From an uncultured Bacteroidia bacterium (GTDB lineage: Bacteria > Bacteroidota > Bacteroidia > Bacteroidales > UBA932): a stretch of 61,137 nucleotides of DNA. Position 1 is the first letter of the stretch. Each line of letters opens with the position of its first letter. The notes under the pieces were generated by a model that was not told where the DNA came from, ran no database searches, and worked only from the letters and a program-made list of their open reading frames with translations. This document shows, piece by piece, positions 25 through 42,063 of the stretch. The stretch lies in NCBI GenBank assembly GCA_902762435.1, contig CACWOH010000012.1:1-61137 (forward strand). Reading direction: 5' to 3'. The position numbers were made by a program, and so were the translations under genes.

Positions 25-1463
25 TCAGAACTGGAAATAGATGAAGTCCGGCGACTGGTTGTCGAAGAACAGGGCCACCAGGAAAAGGAGTGCTATGTAG
101 ACTGCATAGCGGACCGGCCGGGAGTGGATGCCCTGCATGGACAGGCCGTGTTCCAGCCGCCGGTCCCGCCATTCGACGAGCAGCATGGGTATGATCCAGA
201 TCATCCGCTGCAGGAATTCCCCGGTAAGCAGGAAAGAAAGTCCGGTTCCCGGCGTCCATTGCACCATCCGCAGCAGCATGTCTCCTGCCTGGGAGAGCGT
301 ATCCGAACGGACGATGGTGTTGCCGATGGTCGTCAGTACAAGGGTCAGGGCGATCTGCGCCGTTTCCTTGAGGGAAGGGAGTGCCCGGTCCTGGGCGACT
401 GTATCCCGGTATTTCTTCTTTTTCCCCGATAGGATATAGGGGATATAGAGTAGGGCGGTGTATGCGCCCCAAGCCAGGGCCGTCCACTTGGCGCCGTGCC
501 AGAAACCGCAGATCAGGAAGATGATAAGCGTGTTGCGGAACTGTTTCAGTTTGGAACAGCGGTTCCCGCCCAGCGGGATATAGATATAGTCCCGGAACCA
601 GAGCATCAGGGAGATATGCCACCTCTGCCAGAACTCCTTGACGCTCCGGCTGAACAGCGGGAACGCGAAGTTCCGGTGCAGGTGGATGCCGAAGAGCTTG
701 GCGGTGCCGACGGCGATGTCGGAATAACCGGAGAAATCCCCGTACACCTGGACGGTCCGGCCACGATGAGCTGCATCCCGGTGTAATCCGCGCTGTTGGC
801 AAAGACTTCATTGACATAGATGGCGCAGCTGTCCGCTACGACGACTTTCTTGAAAAAGCCCCAGAGCATCTGCCGGAGTCCGTCCACGGCGGTGGCGTAG
901 TCGAAGCTCCGCCGCCTGCCGAATTGCGGGAGCAGGTCGGCGGCGCGTTCGATCGGGCCGGCCACCAGCTGGGGGAAGAAGCAGAGGAAGGCGAAGAACT
1001 GGACGGGATCCCGGACCGGTTCGAACTGCCCCCGGTACACGTCAACCGTGTAACCGACAGCCTGGAAAGTGTAGAAACTGATGCCTACCGGAAGGATCAG
1101 GTGCAGGAGAAGCCCGTCCGAGCGTCCGCCGAGGAAAAGGTCCGCGAAGGACTGTGCAAAGAAGTCGTAGTACTTGAACAGGGCGAGGATGCCGAGATTC
1201 AGGACGATGTTGGCCGTCCGGATCCACCTGGCCCGCCGCAGGTTCTCTTCCCGGTATTTGCGGATCAGCAGTCCGCTTCCAAAGGTGCATAAGGACGTGA
1301 ATGCGATCAGCAGCAGGAAGCGCCAGTCCCACCAGCCATAGAAAACGTACGAGGCAGCTACGACGAAGAGGTTCTGCCATTTCAGGTTGCGTCCGAAAAC
1401 GAACCAGTACAGGCAGAATACGACCGGCAGGAATACCAGGAACGCCAGCGAATTGAAACTCAT
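25..1463 (-). pseudogene. MBOAT family O-acyltransferase (AlgI/DltB-like), frameshifted
   Basis: Membrane-bound O-acyltransferase that would acylate (usually acetylate) an exported glycan. The N-terminal half reads from the ATG at 1463 and the C-terminal half to the stop at 25, in two different frames. The first half is family-like up to MQLIVAG; the second resumes at TVQVYGDFSGYSD. Alignment from memory suggests a loss of 7 or 10 nt near 755-763. Hallmarks seen on both sides: SFYTFQAVGY, QLVAGPIER, DFSGYSDIA and GFWHGAKW with the probable catalytic His. The intact protein would be about 475 residues with many membrane spans. It is the last gene of the capsule operon in view, 14 nt after its upstream neighbour. 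A sequencing or assembly error is an alternative to a real pseudogene. Confidence 0.8.
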
Positions 1464-1477
1464 CGGAAACTACGCAT

Positions 1478-2410
1478 CTACGCACTTAAGAACCGGGCAA
1501 GCCGGATTCTAAGCTTCTGGGGCAGGCATCTTCTTGCAAAAGACCTCAGGGAGAACGCGACCGAAGCGATTGTGTCGAGGAGGACTCCCTTCAATTCCTG
1601 AAACAGGCCGGCCCGTTTCCCGCAGGCAATCATGTCTGCAAGCCGCCCGGTTTCCTCCTTGTAGAAGCTTCCGTCGGTTTCCGTCATAGCCCAATGGAGG
1701 AAATACCGGCCTTTCGGCATGATCCAGGTGTCATTGTATCGATAGTTCAGTTTTCCTTTCCGGATATCCGCCCTGACTGAACGGCAGAGCGGGTAGTAGC
1801 AGAACACTTCTTTATATCCTTTGGCAGGTTTGTAGGCGTGGACTGAAGACGCAAGTGCAAAAATGGGCTCATCAACGGGTACGCCATACGGATAACCCGA
1901 GAACGAGAAGGCGTCATAGTGATCGAGAATATACCTGCAGGTTCGGGAAAAACCTTCCAGTTTTCCTTTCCTCATAAAGAACAGCCCGCCTTGATAAATG
2001 ACAGAAAAACCGACCTTTTCGCTAAAAACGGAGGTGTCTTCCTTCCGGAACCATCCGAGCTGCTGGTGGAAAGGGTAGGCATATCCCAGATAGGAGAAGT
2101 CATTACAGCGGGAGAAAAGCTTCCATAGTCCGTTCAAGTCCCTGTACGCCAGGCAATCGGAATCTATGAATATCGTTTCCTCATACGGTGCGAGACCGGG
2201 TACCCGTAACTTGTCCAGGAAAGAATGAGCGGGATGGTCGATCAGGATAACCTTATCGAAATCCGCGGTATACTCATTCGTTCGATCGCAGATGATGGCG
2301 AACGGGAGCGGTGTCCTGGAGAAAAAACGGTAGGATAGCAGCAGGTTGTGCGCGACTTCGAAATACCGGATTCCTCCGGTCGCCATGGTGACGAATCCTC
2401 TTTCTTTCAT
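1478..2410 (-). CDS. Glycosyltransferase-like protein (GT8-like fold, capsule operon)
   Basis: A 310-residue protein resembling nucleotide-sugar glycosyltransferases with a GT-A fold. The N-terminus MKERGFVTMATGG is followed by strand/helix alternation and a DxD-like motif, FIDSDCLAYRD, around residue 95, which would bind the metal and sugar nucleotide. A further in-frame ATG lies 30 nt upstream at 2440, but the start at 2410 is preferred: it falls 1 nt after the stop of the preceding gene. It is visibly AT-richer than its neighbours. Acceptor and donor sugars cannot be assigned. Probable role: side-chain or backbone sugar transfer in the cytoplasm. Confidence 0.65.
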   Translation of the reverse strand: MKERGFVTMATGGIRYFEVAHNLLLSYRFFSRTPLPFAIICDRTNEYTADFDKVILIDHPAHSFLDKLRVPGLAPYEETIFIDSDCLAYRDLNGLWKLFSRCNDFSYLGYAYPFHQQLGWFRKEDTSVFSEKVGFSVIYQGGLFFMRKGKLEGFSRTCRYILDHYDAFSFSGYPYGVPVDEPIFALASSVHAYKPAKGYKEVFCYYPLCRSVRADIRKGKLNYRYNDTWIMPKGRYFLHWAMTETDGSFYKEETGRLADMIACGKRAGLFQELKGVLLDTIASVAFSLRSFARRCLPQKLRIRLARFLSA

Positions 2411-2411
2411 A

Positions 2412-3401
2412 TTAATGCGCACGAAGCCTGGACCGGACAAACGAGATCGTAATGTTGGGATTGAACCGGCTTCGGAAGTCGGCGTAATCCGCCGAAGAGA
2501 GCACGGCCTCCATCAGGAACAGGTCGACTGGCGCATACAACTCCGCATGGCGGCGGACTTCCGGGGCGATGGCGTTGAAAAACGGCTTCACGAATTCGAA
2601 CTTGTCTTCCGTGTCCAGGAGCACCTGGCCGCCGTAGAACAGGCGCAGGCCTTCCGTAGGGAGTCCCCGGGAAAGGCGCTGGTCGTGCAGGTACTTGAAA
2701 CTGACGATGTTATGGTAGCACAAGTCCCTTTGGTGCAGCAGGGATTCCGCCCGCTGTAGGTAGTGGTAGAAGGGACCGCGGAACACAAACGCCCGAGGCG
2801 TCAGCGAACCGGCCAGGCCCGCGTAATAAATGTCTTCCGTCCCGTCGCGGACGGTCCGGGCGGGGAAGCGTATCTGGTTTTCCAGCAGGAAACTGCGGCG
2901 GAACAGCCGCGCCCAGACGACCGGCGGGAAGCGGTTCTGTACCACCTCGGCGGGATAGTATCCGGGCTCGTCGCCCACGAAGCCGAAGCGGCTGCTGAAG
3001 GCCCTTTTGCCGGATTCCGGAAACTCTTCGACATAATTGGCGTTGACGACGATGTCCTCTCCTGTCCGTTCCGCCTGGGCCACCATCGCTTCCAGATAAT
3101 CCGGATCGAGCCGGTCGTCGGAATCCAGGAAATAGACAAACGTTCCCCGGGCGGCGTCCATCCCGGCGTTCCGGGCTGCCGAAACGCCTTGATTCTCGGG
3201 GAATTGAATAATGTGCAGGCGCGGGTCCCGAATCCCTTTGAGAATCTCAGCGGAGCGGTCTGCGGAGCAGTCATCCACGCAGATGATTTCGATTTCCCGC
3301 AGGGTCTGCTCCAGGGCGGAACGGACGCATTTTTCAATGAAAGCGCCGGCGTTGTACACCGGGATGATTACGGAAACTTTTGCAATTTCAATCATTTGCA
3401 C
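2412..3401 (-). CDS. Family 2 glycosyltransferase
   Basis: A 329-residue GT2 enzyme. The N-terminus VSVIIPVYNAGAFIEKC, ICVDDCSADRS and FLDSDDRLDP are the nucleotide-binding and DxD motifs of the GT-A fold. It has no membrane segment, so it acts at the cytoplasmic face on a lipid-linked repeat unit. The C-terminal half (GPFYHYLQR, then a FEFVKPFF block) is clearly paralogous to the next gene upstream (3427-4455), suggesting tandem duplication. It lies 25 nt downstream of that gene, within the capsule operon. The sugar transferred is unknown. Confidence 0.88.
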   Translation of the reverse strand: MQMIEIAKVSVIIPVYNAGAFIEKCVRSALEQTLREIEIICVDDCSADRSAEILKGIRDPRLHIIQFPENQGVSAARNAGMDAARGTFVYFLDSDDRLDPDYLEAMVAQAERTGEDIVVNANYVEEFPESGKRAFSSRFGFVGDEPGYYPAEVVQNRFPPVVWARLFRRSFLLENQIRFPARTVRDGTEDIYYAGLAGSLTPRAFVFRGPFYHYLQRAESLLHQRDLCYHNIVSFKYLHDQRLSRGLPTEGLRLFYGGQVLLDTEDKFEFVKPFFNAIAPEVRRHAELYAPVDLFLMEAVLSSADYADFRSRFNPNITISFVRSRLRAH

Positions 3402-39982: not shown

Positions 39983-40724
39983 CATCCTGCCGGAAGAAAT
40001 AGAAAAAATGCCGCTGGGAGCCTTTCCCGGCAAGATCCACGTCATTGACAAGACCGGCATCGAGTTCGTCAAGGCCGTCGCCTACCTGCGGACACAGAAG
40101 GTGATCGGCTTCGACACCGAGACGCGTCCGGTCTTCTCGCCGGGCCAGCGCCACAACCACGTCGCACTCCTGCAGCTTTCCGGCGCAGGGCAGGCGTACC
40201 TGTTCCGGGTGGACCGGCTGGGCATGCGCAAGCTCATCTGCGGCATCCTTTCGAATCCGCGCATCGTCAAGGTGGGCGCGGCGGTGCACGACGACGTGCG
40301 CGGCCTGCAGTACTACCAGCATTTCGACGCGAAGGCCTTCGTGGACCTGCAGAAGATTGCCTACGAGTGGGGGATCCGCGACAAGAGCGTCAAGAAGCTG
40401 GCGGCCAACATCCTCGGCGTGCGGATTTCCAAGTCGCAGCAGCTTTCCAACTGGGAGGCCGAGCAGCTGACCGCCCCGCAGCAGATGTATGCGGCTACGG
40501 ATGCCTGGATCTGCCGGGAGATGTATCTGAAACTCCTGAAGTGCGAGAAGCATCCGCTCACGCCGGAGGAACTCAACCCGCCGCAGCCGCAGCCGGCACA
40601 GCCGCCCAAGGTGGAAGATCCCGCGCCGGCGCAGGACAATCCCGACAAGCCGAAGGCGAAGCGCCGCCGGCACCGTCACCGCAAACTCAGGAAGCCGCAG
40701 GAGGCTTCGCAGGAAAATGGTTAA
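39969..40724 (+). CDS. DEDDy 3'-5' exonuclease domain protein (RNase D-like)
   Basis: A 251-residue protein. Catalytic motifs of the DEDDy class are present: VIGFDTETRPVF (DxE), KVGAAVHDDVRGL (D), and MYAATDAWICREMY (Y-x-x-x-D). The C-terminal ~55 residues are a Pro/Lys/Arg-rich tail ending in RRRHRHRKLRK, probably nucleic-acid binding. It may trim RNA or DNA 3' ends; it lacks the HRDC domains of true RNase D. It overlaps the methyltransferase gene by 8 nt. Confidence 0.88.
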   Translation: MFKISILPEEIEKMPLGAFPGKIHVIDKTGIEFVKAVAYLRTQKVIGFDTETRPVFSPGQRHNHVALLQLSGAGQAYLFRVDRLGMRKLICGILSNPRIVKVGAAVHDDVRGLQYYQHFDAKAFVDLQKIAYEWGIRDKSVKKLAANILGVRISKSQQLSNWEAEQLTAPQQMYAATDAWICREMYLKLLKCEKHPLTPEELNPPQPQPAQPPKVEDPAPAQDNPDKPKAKRRRHRHRKLRKPQEASQENG

Positions 40725-42063
40725 GATCATTCTGAAGCGCGGCCGCGACGAGTCGTTGCGCCGTTTCCACCCGTGGGTGTTCAGCGGGGCTGTCGCCCAG
40801 GTGCAGGGCTCGCCCGCCGAGGGCGACATCGTGGGCGTGTACAGCGCCGAAGGGCAGTTCCTGGCCTGCGGGCACTGGCAGGTCGGCTCCATCGCCGTAC
40901 GCATCCTTTCCTTTGATGCGGACCCCACCGCGCCCGGATTCTGGGTCGATTCCCTCTCCCGCGCCCTCGCCGTCCGGGAGGCCGTCGGCCTGTATCGGGT
41001 GGGCAGGAGCGGCGAACTGCCTCCTGAAACGTCCCAGACCAATTGCTTTCGGCTGGTACACGGAGAGGGCGATGGGTTACCCGGGCTGATCATCGACTGG
41101 TACGACGGCGTCTGCGTGATGCAGGCCCACTCGGTGGGCATGTTTCGCGCGAAGGGGCAGATCTGCGAGGCGCTGAAGGCCGTCTTCGGCGATCGCTTGA
41201 AGGCGGTTTACGACAAGAGTTCCGGGACGGCCCCCTTCAAGGCGGGCCTCGACCTGGTGGACGGCTACCTGTACCGCGCCGAGGGCTTCGACGTCTCGGA
41301 GGCGGTCGTCCTCGAAAACGGCCGCAAGTTCCTGGTAAACTGGGAGGAAGGTCAGAAGACAGGCTTCTTCCTGGACCAGCGCGACAACCGCGACCTGGTG
41401 GGCAGATATGCAGCCGGCCGGCGCGTACTCAATCTTTTCTGCTACACCGGCGGTTTCAGCATCTACGCCCTCACGGCCGGCGCCGCGCTCGTGGATTCGG
41501 TCGACTCCTCCGCCCGCGCGATGGACCTCGTCGCCCGCAACATTGAATTGAACAGCACGCCGGGGAGCGGCAGCCAGCCTCTGGAAACGTCCGGCTGTGC
41601 CGGACCCCTCCCATCTGACGATGGGCCCCTCCCTCTTAACGTGCCGAGGGTGGCAGTGTTTCCTGAGGCAGCTGCCGCCTCCCCGGCAGCTGAATGCAAT
41701 AACTACTGCGAGGATGCGATCGAGTTCCTGCGGAAGACGCCGGAAGGGAAGTACGACCTGATAATCGTGGACCCGCCGGCATTCGCGAAGCACCGCGGTG
41801 CCCTGCAGAACGCCCTCCGCGCCTACCAGCGCCTCAATGCGGCGGCCATCGCGAAAGTGGCCCCCGGCGGCCTCGTGTTCACCTTCAGCTGCTCGCAGGT
41901 CGTGGATAAGATCACCTTCGCCAACACGGTCTTCTCCGCCGCCGCCCAGACCGGCCGCAGCGTCCGCATCCTGGACCGCCTGTGCCAGGGCTCGGACCAC
42001 CCCGTCAGCATCTACCATCCGGAAGGAGAATACCTCAAGGGCCTGCTGCTTTACGTGGAATAA
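40717..42063 (+). CDS. Class I rRNA methyltransferase (RlmI family) with in-frame insertion
   Basis: A 448-residue protein: a PUA domain at residues ~1-75 (HPWVFSGAV), then a Rossmann SAM-dependent methyltransferase with VLNLFCYTGGFSIYAL and IIVDPPAFAKHRG (the DPP(A/S)F motif). RlmI-type enzymes make m5C in 23S rRNA. Residues ~282-324, between LVARNIELN and NNYCEDAIEFL, are an extra Gly/Ser/Pro-rich segment; the DNA there is a 127-bp inverted-repeat element (41560-41686). It lies on the surface loop after beta strand 2, where insertion could be tolerated. Family assignment is firm; exact rRNA target is not. Confidence 0.88.
   Translation: MVKIILKRGRDESLRRFHPWVFSGAVAQVQGSPAEGDIVGVYSAEGQFLACGHWQVGSIAVRILSFDADPTAPGFWVDSLSRALAVREAVGLYRVGRSGELPPETSQTNCFRLVHGEGDGLPGLIIDWYDGVCVMQAHSVGMFRAKGQICEALKAVFGDRLKAVYDKSSGTAPFKAGLDLVDGYLYRAEGFDVSEAVVLENGRKFLVNWEEGQKTGFFLDQRDNRDLVGRYAAGRRVLNLFCYTGGFSIYALTAGAALVDSVDSSARAMDLVARNIELNSTPGSGSQPLETSGCAGPLPSDDGPLPLNVPRVAVFPEAAAASPAAECNNYCEDAIEFLRKTPEGKYDLIIVDPPAFAKHRGALQNALRAYQRLNAAAIAKVAPGGLVFTFSCSQVVDKITFANTVFSAAAQTGRSVRILDRLCQGSDHPVSIYHPEGEYLKGLLLYVE
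41560..41686 (+). repeat. In-frame palindromic element inside the methyltransferase gene
   Basis: Left arm 41560-41588 and right arm 41658-41686 are ~29-nt inverted repeats (about two mismatches and two one-base gaps). The interior contains hairpins GTCCGGC-tgt-GCCGGAC (41589-41605) and CCCATC-tgac-GATGGG (41610-41625), plus a CCCTC/GAGGG stem. No stop codon is created in the gene frame. Confidence 0.8.

Follow-up and report, generated by a model that had tools for sequence, protein, structure and literature searches.

The window, a stretch of 61,137 nucleotides, is contig C12 of the genome of a gut-type Bacteroidales bacterium, which has 2.30 Mb in 46 contigs and is labelled G000. It contains an rlmI-like 23S rRNA methyltransferase gene that carries, in frame, a palindromic element of 127 nt composed of two long arms and a folded core. 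The features are listed below, each with the evidence on which it is based.

40717..42063, + strand: rlmI-like 23S rRNA methyltransferase gene with the in-frame element (ORF; homology matches split in two around the insert)
41011..41034, + strand: 24-bp piece inside rlmI resembling the 5' arm of other copies (a second full element, L060:1378-1491, lies at the same place in the rlmI of the sister genome G008)
41542..41556, + strand: host flank ATTGAATTGAACAGC, which may pair with the imperfect inverted copy at 41689-41700 (pairing by eye, weak here)
41560..41686, + strand: palindromic element, arms and folded core, 127 nt (arm pairing, DNA and RNA folds, covariance-model match)
41566-41679: covariance-model match to the element in the window (113 bits)
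41560..41588, + strand: 5' arm, stem P1 with bulges (arm complementarity, DNA fold, covariation)
41589..41605, + strand: hairpin P2, GTCCGGC-TGT-GCCGGAC (DNA fold, alignment of copies)
41610..41625, + strand: hairpin P3, CCCATC-TGAC-GATGGG, varying among copies (DNA fold, alignment of copies)
41631..41655, + strand: pseudoknot; in stem one CCCTC (41631-41635) pairs with GAGGG (41646-41650), in stem two TGCC (41642-41645) with GGCA (41652-41655) (covariation in alignments of 17 copies, WGCC/GGCW, and of 66 copies, both stems)
41658..41686, + strand: 3' arm, stem P1 (arm complementarity, DNA fold, covariation)
41689..41700, + strand: GCTGAATGCAAT, which may be an imperfect inverted copy of the host flank on the left (stronger examples at other sites)

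The product of ORF 40717-42063 is an RlmI-type methyltransferase, as indicated by NCBIfam and Pfam matches and by its PDB relatives; the NCBIfam scores do not reach the curated cut-offs, which is what a match broken in two would give. The alignments of E. coli 3c0k and of 2as0 to it come in two pieces, the first up to query residue 281 and the second from residue 333 or 335. The earlier note on this DNA had located the insert where the RlmI family has no residues, between the SAM-site strand and CEDAIEFL, and had described it as open in frame. Both statements hold, since the two alignments break there and the ORF continues uninterrupted through the insert. The comparison of orthologous rlmI genes that it had proposed gave a clear result. 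The gene is found at E<=1e-40 in 37 of 41 genomes of the genus, and 30 genus loci were compared, of which 29 were readable and the thirtieth was left unparsed. In 27 of the 29 the two RlmI motifs are separated by 43-45 residues and the insert is missing; the distance is 86 residues in the window genome and 96 in G008. The net addition is therefore about 41 aa, close to the 43 residues of the original estimate. The rlmI of G008 has a copy in reverse orientation in the same gap and a second one, in forward orientation, near residue 100. The 24-bp piece at 41011-41034 is probably the deletion relic of an element.

The arms (41559-41588 and 41658-41687) form an inverted repeat that is 73% complementary in an ungapped count. 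When bulges are allowed, the DNA fold of the 127 nt reaches -47.1 kcal/mol, in comparison with -24.0 +/- 2.8 for shuffled sequences (z -8.36; none of 200 shuffles as good). The corresponding RNA fold (-81.7, z -7.45) was not equalled by any of 200 shuffles either. Arms of about 29 nt are thus real, and only the qualification "near-perfect" given to them previously was slightly generous. With regard to the two or more further hairpins described in the interior, those at 41589-41605 and 41610-41625 are good ones, but the third inner element reads better as a pseudoknot.

A dispersed family with a pseudoknotted core

About 30 copies of the element are present in the window genome. A DNA search of this genome with the element yielded 29 matches with E up to 10, of which 22 have E<=0.0041, and a covariance model built from the alignment of 17 of its copies gave 37 matches at E<=1 and 34 at E<=2.1e-4. 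Two of the 34, C35:15 and C1:2, sit at contig ends and may be the two halves of one copy. The search for repeats elsewhere in the genome, through which the earlier note had left its proposal exposed to refutation, was thus positive. A lineage-specific protein loop was ruled out as well, since the segment repeats elsewhere in the genome. Two other candidates were discarded: a plasmid-borne repeat, given that a plasmid collection yielded no match at E<=1, and a known RNA family, given that the five Rfam matches in 41300-41900 were all below their gathering scores, the best one over the element having an E of 1.3.

The covariance model has matches at E<=0.01 in 32 of 37 genomes of the same genus, the window genome included, and in none of 24 genomes of other families (61 genomes searched in total). 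An order-wide search of 247 genomes, carried out with stricter filters and of such low sensitivity that only 14 of the matches of the window genome were recovered, detected matches at E<=1e-5 in four genomes: the window genome, a genome from another genus of its family, with 2 copies, and two genomes, with 11 and 3 copies, that belong to two other families. A further genome of the genus of the window genome was without matches in that search. Four copies from relatives outside the genus retain the arms and most of the core. Besides, a scan of named genomes with the core pattern found at least 119 stretches, and the 80 loci listed, many of them from ruminant sources, are all titled Bacteroidales or Bacteroidia; none of these hosts belongs to the Rickettsiales. 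The copies gathered amount to 152, or 151 distinct ones, because the copies at loci L114 and L041 are identical and probably come from one genome under two names. This sample is not random, 86 copies coming from loci fetched by the core pattern.

From the outside to the inside, the element consists of long P1 arms (usually with a bulge), followed by hairpins P2 and P3 and by an H-type pseudoknot, which across the family is made up of CCCTC paired with GAGGG and of WGCC paired with GGCW. The length of the copies ranges from 96 to 216 nt (146 of the 152 measured). In the alignment of 17 copies, two-sided changes affect 15 of 20 arm pairs and a one-sided change occurs in one cell; the CCCTC/GAGGG stem is invariant, and the CGTC at the foot of P2, which is altered in other subtypes, is found in all 17 rows. 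A larger alignment of 66 copies was fitted to the covariance model, the pseudoknot being added by hand. Its cells are paired in 91.7% of cases and 35 of 44 pairs have changed on both sides, with 579 cells so changed; shuffles give 151 +/- 12 such cells and slid structures no more than 96. In this set the CCCTC/GAGGG stem varies at two of its five pairs (U-A 42, G-C 18 and A-U 2; C-G 49 and U-A 10; five cells unpaired). Among the copies, pseudoknots of the subtypes CCCGT/ACGGG, CCCGC/GCGGG and CCCAT/ATGGG have been seen. The weakest helix is P2, with 76.4% of its cells paired. Helix 4 (P3), in which the long and the short hairpin types are out of register, has many G-U cells.

Selection on an RNA of the top strand would predict an excess of G.T mismatches in the arms. 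The extended arms of 146 of the 152 copies contain 4448 Watson-Crick pairs, 96 A.C and 59 G.T mismatches, 307 transversions and 312 gaps. This absence of a G.T excess over A.C favours pairing at the DNA level or copying from arm to arm, and we consider it probable that the element folds as DNA.

According to a codon score based on a model trained on the window, coding ORFs contain 42 of the 152 copies in frame, with 27 running against the gene and 15 with it. The others do not span an ORF, being intergenic or of low score (96), lie at contig edges (13) or show a same-strand coding signal in other frames (1). The count of 42 is unaffected by the identical pair of copies, and 22 of the 86 copies from core-pattern loci are in frame. 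In the window genome 14 of 34 copies are in frame by score, to which three (in trmH-, xerC- and queH-like genes) were added by hand. Judging by eye, we take the carrier genes to be of the TrmH/SpoU, XerC/D, RibF, RNase R-like, ComEA-like, HI0933-like, TldD and PmbA kinds, and further ones to be of the DsbD-like, THUMP-like methyltransferase (two copies), YgiQ, RecG, UvrD-like and QueH kinds. The THUMP-like methyltransferase gene, so identified by eye, holds two in-frame copies about 500 bp apart (L209:2479-2594 and 3091-3206). On average, 2.77 of the six frames are free of stops in 146 copies, in comparison with 1.92 in mononucleotide shuffles.

The pseudoknot, the strong covariation in both alignments and the stability of the RNA fold could also be understood if the element were a structured RNA acting in the transcript, through self-splicing, ribosomal bypass or as a ribozyme, so that the gene product would be made without the insert. 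Nevertheless, a self-splicing intron would be expected in one orientation, and the 27 copies against and 15 with the gene imply that no one strand is always transcribed. The mismatches of the arms and the Rfam scores mentioned above also speak against a function in the transcript. Moreover, excision would not need the frame to be kept, as it is in the in-frame copies. We regard a transcript-level RNA as very improbable. We have hardly any doubt that the copies form a real, genus-wide family of palindromic elements that are predicted to be translated.

Comparison of sites and host flanks

Fifteen sites, strung together in one query, were compared with the sister genomes G008 and G015. The recG and HI0933-like sites were read as empty in G008; the uvrD-like site in G015 and the pmbA, dsbD-like and ribF sites in both genomes were also read as empty, with a diverged junction sequence. 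The HI0933-like gene is uninterrupted in seven genomes, three of which have a slightly longer spacer. MITEs make direct target duplications. None was noticed by eye at the sites read here, where the empty alleles are not near-identical; the check for target duplications suggested previously gave instead, at two sites, an inverted copy of a host flank, described below.

Nine sites occupied in common with G008 or G015 were compared for the orientation of the core, taken as the gene strand relative to the element strand, the sequence itself being read for rlmI, trmH and recG. The core is reversed in six of them (rlmI, trmH, recG, ygiQ, the RNase R-like gene and tldD) and has the same orientation in xerC, uvrD and comEA. 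The genomes compared are assemblies, and switching was not seen in them. This count leaves out the queH-like site, contig C84 of G015, the second rlmI site and a second trmH comparison (with G015, also reversed). On contig C84 of G015, queH-like and xerC-like pieces join at an element, possibly as an assembly chimera caused by the repeat.

These reversals recall the intragenic invertons, in which a recombinase would flip the core between the inverted arms and thereby switch protein variants. The available text of PMC11892184 reports such systems in gut Bacteroides, and the element agrees with the definition given there in having inverted arms around a segment that is found in both orientations. 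After an in silico flip, 27 of 41 frames are still open, in comparison with 2465 of 5647 segments of equal length elsewhere in the same genes. However, orthologous copies differ in their arms and, at several sites, in their core types, which is unexpected from simple flipping. Unlike invertons, the Bacteroidales element is mobile and multi-copy, its carriers resemble housekeeping genes, and orthologues without it exist. An inverton is thus a quite unlikely explanation.

In ten comparisons, the orthologous copy ranked, out of 32, at positions 1, 2, 5, 15, 20, 4, 1, 1, 1 and 20 for the core and 14, 11, 1, 7, 3, 29, 24, 21, 1 and 5 for the arms. That is, orthologous cores are the closest ones in four of ten cases and orthologous arms in only two, so transposition, conversion between copies and flipping in place look alike here, and the arms and cores of these ten comparisons do not preserve a clean history of flips. 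Judged from these sequences, turnover of elements at old sites would be at least as likely as flipping. The same host genes (rlmI, ribF, HI0933-like, trmH and ygiQ) have apparently been hit in other species (L092:3147-3308, L145:4190-4309, L103, L112, L031 and L039, by eye), which suggests that the insertion sites may be recurrent or long-held.

Two sites, the HI0933-like and the ribF-like ones, were compared for copies of the host flanks, with the boundary between arm and flank cut by hand. In the four filled HI0933-like alleles read (a fifth, G089, was left out), an inverted copy of the left flank of that same species is contained in the sequence on the right side of the element. G143 and L112 have clear copies of about 20 bp with gaps; those of L103 and G000 are short, at about 11 bp, part of which possibly belongs to the arm. 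A perfect inverted copy of 21 bp is present in the ribF-like allele L145, where the right side was taken by eye as the host side from the empty allele G201. The mirror scores of six filled alleles are 14, 13, 9, 9, 21 and 7.5, whereas those of ten empty alleles (seven HI0933-like and three ribF) are 5.0-7.5 at the best split; consequently, five of the six filled alleles exceed every empty one and the sixth ties with the best of them. Across the family, complementarity outside the modelled stem exceeds the 99% level of a null made of mismatched pairs in 46 of 146 copies at offset 0 (15 nt) and 16 of 144 at offset 5 (30 nt), most copies not exceeding it. At larger offsets the numbers are 8 of 144 (offset 10), 3 of 144 (offset 20), 1 of 143 (offset 40) and 2 of 140 (offset 100).

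These mirror copies point to fold-back copying of the host flank at insertion, to which we give slightly less than an even chance. An old insertion whose arms correct each other would look similar. Several independent entries at the HI0933-like site are the simpler reading, because the gene of the sister G008 is uninterrupted. The outermost helix is copy-specific and host-like, as would also be the case if the element entered host sequences that were already palindromic, its outer arms being old target hairpins. The low mirror scores of the ten empty alleles at the two sites, under those of five of the six filled ones, make this origin of the arms highly unlikely.

Candidate mobilisers and known systems

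Matches to Y1 (IS200/RAYT-like) transposases are present in 33 of 41 genomes of the genus. The window genome has five weak ones, one of them above the family cut-off, and one of its Y1 proteins weakly matches the NCBIfam RAYT model NF047646 (E 1e-6, 28.7 bits, cut-off 80). In 37 genus genomes, unevenly complete and uncorrected for ancestry, the number of element copies correlates with that of Y1 genes (Spearman 0.50, p 0.0015); the value is 0.75 (p 0.003) in the 13 genomes of at least 90% completeness. Genome size and copies give 0.26 (p 0.12). Y1 matches are missing in four of the five copy-free genomes versus four of the other 32 (Fisher p 0.0048). There are counter-examples, such as G010, with three Y1 matches and no copy, and G014, with 11 copies and no Y1 match. 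Mobilisation by a retro-element was rejected: reverse transcriptases were not found in the copy-rich G016 and G027 and are present in the copy-free G013, yet they are also present in the copy-rich G017. Read by eye, the table of reverse transcriptases does not match copy number as the Y1 genes do.

The 40 regions read out of the 118 Y1 regions listed (243 kb from 11 genomes) contain two element matches in all, a clear one about 1.5 kb off and a weak one (E 0.029) about 0.7 kb off, and the five Y1 genes of the window genome have one weak match nearby (E 0.55). In those 40 regions, flanking of Y1 genes by the element does not go beyond the two or three matches that we estimate to be expected from scatter, and no classical REPtron was found in them or at the Y1 genes of the window genome. 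For the mobilising gene of RAYT type whose search had been proposed, the Y1/RAYT-like genes are candidates; their number correlates with that of the copies, but in the regions covered the element does not flank them beyond scatter. Action of a Y1/RAYT-like mobiliser in trans is conceivable, and we propose it tentatively.

One could also view the element as an atypical REP of a Bacteroidetes RAYT, in the REPtron (TnpAREP) sense of the literature. The available text of PMC6006769 describes a RAYT subclass 2.6, mostly from Bacteroidetes, that is flanked by "atypical secondary structures" with copies elsewhere, and another subclass, numerous in Bacteroidetes, whose own RAYT genes contain REPs in frame. 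CGTC-type palindromes occur in Bacteroidetes according to the available text of PMC3733652. The correlation of Y1 gene number with copies and the weak match to NF047646 agree with such a relationship. In these accounts, REPs are palindromic, non-autonomous, sometimes in frame within genes, 20-40 bp (PMC3733652) or 21-65 nt (PMC6006769) long, provided with a short tag and often found flanking their RAYT gene. In contrast, the Bacteroidales element measures 96-216 nt in the 146 copies, outside the 20-40 bp of a REP hairpin unit, and it has several inner elements. REP hairpins bear a GTAG or CGTC tag at their foot; in the element, CGTC occupies that position of P2 in the 17 aligned copies and is altered in other subtypes. 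The 40 Y1 regions hold two matches to it, one of them weak, and one RAYT-like gene of the window genome bears other palindromes. An atypical REP is thus an unlikely identity for the element.

The reading that we prefer, with a probability of roughly 0.55, is that of a non-autonomous mobile palindromic element of a Bacteroidales genus that acts at the DNA level and is predicted to be translated through. It would move in the form of a single strand that is folded, with HUH/Y1 (IS200/RAYT-like) transposases probably acting on it in trans. Once the target has been joined to one end, the other arm would fold back, and a polymerase would copy some 10-20 bases of the adjoining host strand, the resulting mirror copy becoming the new outer arm. 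Repeated rounds, together with exchange between copies, could lead to arms that differ among copies and are still complementary. Those copies that land in permissive loops, free of stops and with a length that is a multiple of three, would add about 40-60 residues to the protein, the arms being translated as well.

That this would constitute a new mode of movement, in which a pseudoknotted single-stranded hairpin joined at one end copies the flank with its free arm and so acquires fresh outer arms at each insertion, seems to us rather doubtful. If it were true, the element would be self-complementary by construction, tolerated in either orientation and preadapted to translated residence in genes. 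The mirror copy of the host flank provides a specific signature of entry into DNA that is open to test, and a genus-wide family with different states at the same sites in many species offers a natural series in which to study insertion and turnover and what it costs to translate palindromes.

In-frame palindromes in genes are best known in Rickettsia and Wolbachia, plus some REPs elsewhere. The RPE and WPE elements are described, in the available text of PMC3767692 and PMC3733652, as repeats of 100-150 bp located in frame in many protein genes, with different elements sometimes near the same place in orthologues. The Bacteroidales element resembles the RPEs in being a palindromic repeat of about 100-150 bp, dispersed in many copies, in frame in many conserved genes and missing from most orthologues seen. 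With regard to these features it works like them, as the earlier note had surmised; the likeness is one of features and not of compared sequences, so the element is not placed in the RPE family. It differs from the RPEs in belonging to another phylum, in its pseudoknotted core with covarying arms and in the inverted host-flank copy at some sites. A literature search mostly confined to papers outside subscription brought up no account of palindromic elements lying in frame in genes of Bacteroidales, in agreement with the remark that none was known in Bacteroidetes, nor one of an inverted flank copy at such elements. The MITEs RUP and NEMIS, as presented in the available text of PMC3733652, share with the element its small size, the lack of coding capacity, the inverted ends and the many copies; their terminal repeats are as in an IS, while the arms of the element vary from copy to copy.

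Other palindromes were observed in the window genome. The RAYT-like Y1 gene at L227 (G000 C10, gene 880-1821, minus strand) is flanked by three palindromic dimers of its own, different from the element. Dimers of this type occur at six places in all, the further copies being at C1:2740, C32:21354 and C35:10857. Those of C1 and C35 lie 25 and 18 bp, respectively, from copies of the element, in segments that are 86-95% alike. Two other Y1 genes of this genome also have a hairpin near a gene end (L229:503-602 and L231:2310-2352). Finally, a second hairpin-rich repeat family is found at ten places at E<=2.5e-10 (G000 C7:13667-13779, C2:82286-82400, C9:67389-67497 and seven more). Three of these places have their start 116-150 bp away from copies of the first family, and the repeat is read through in frame in TldD- and PolA-looking genes.
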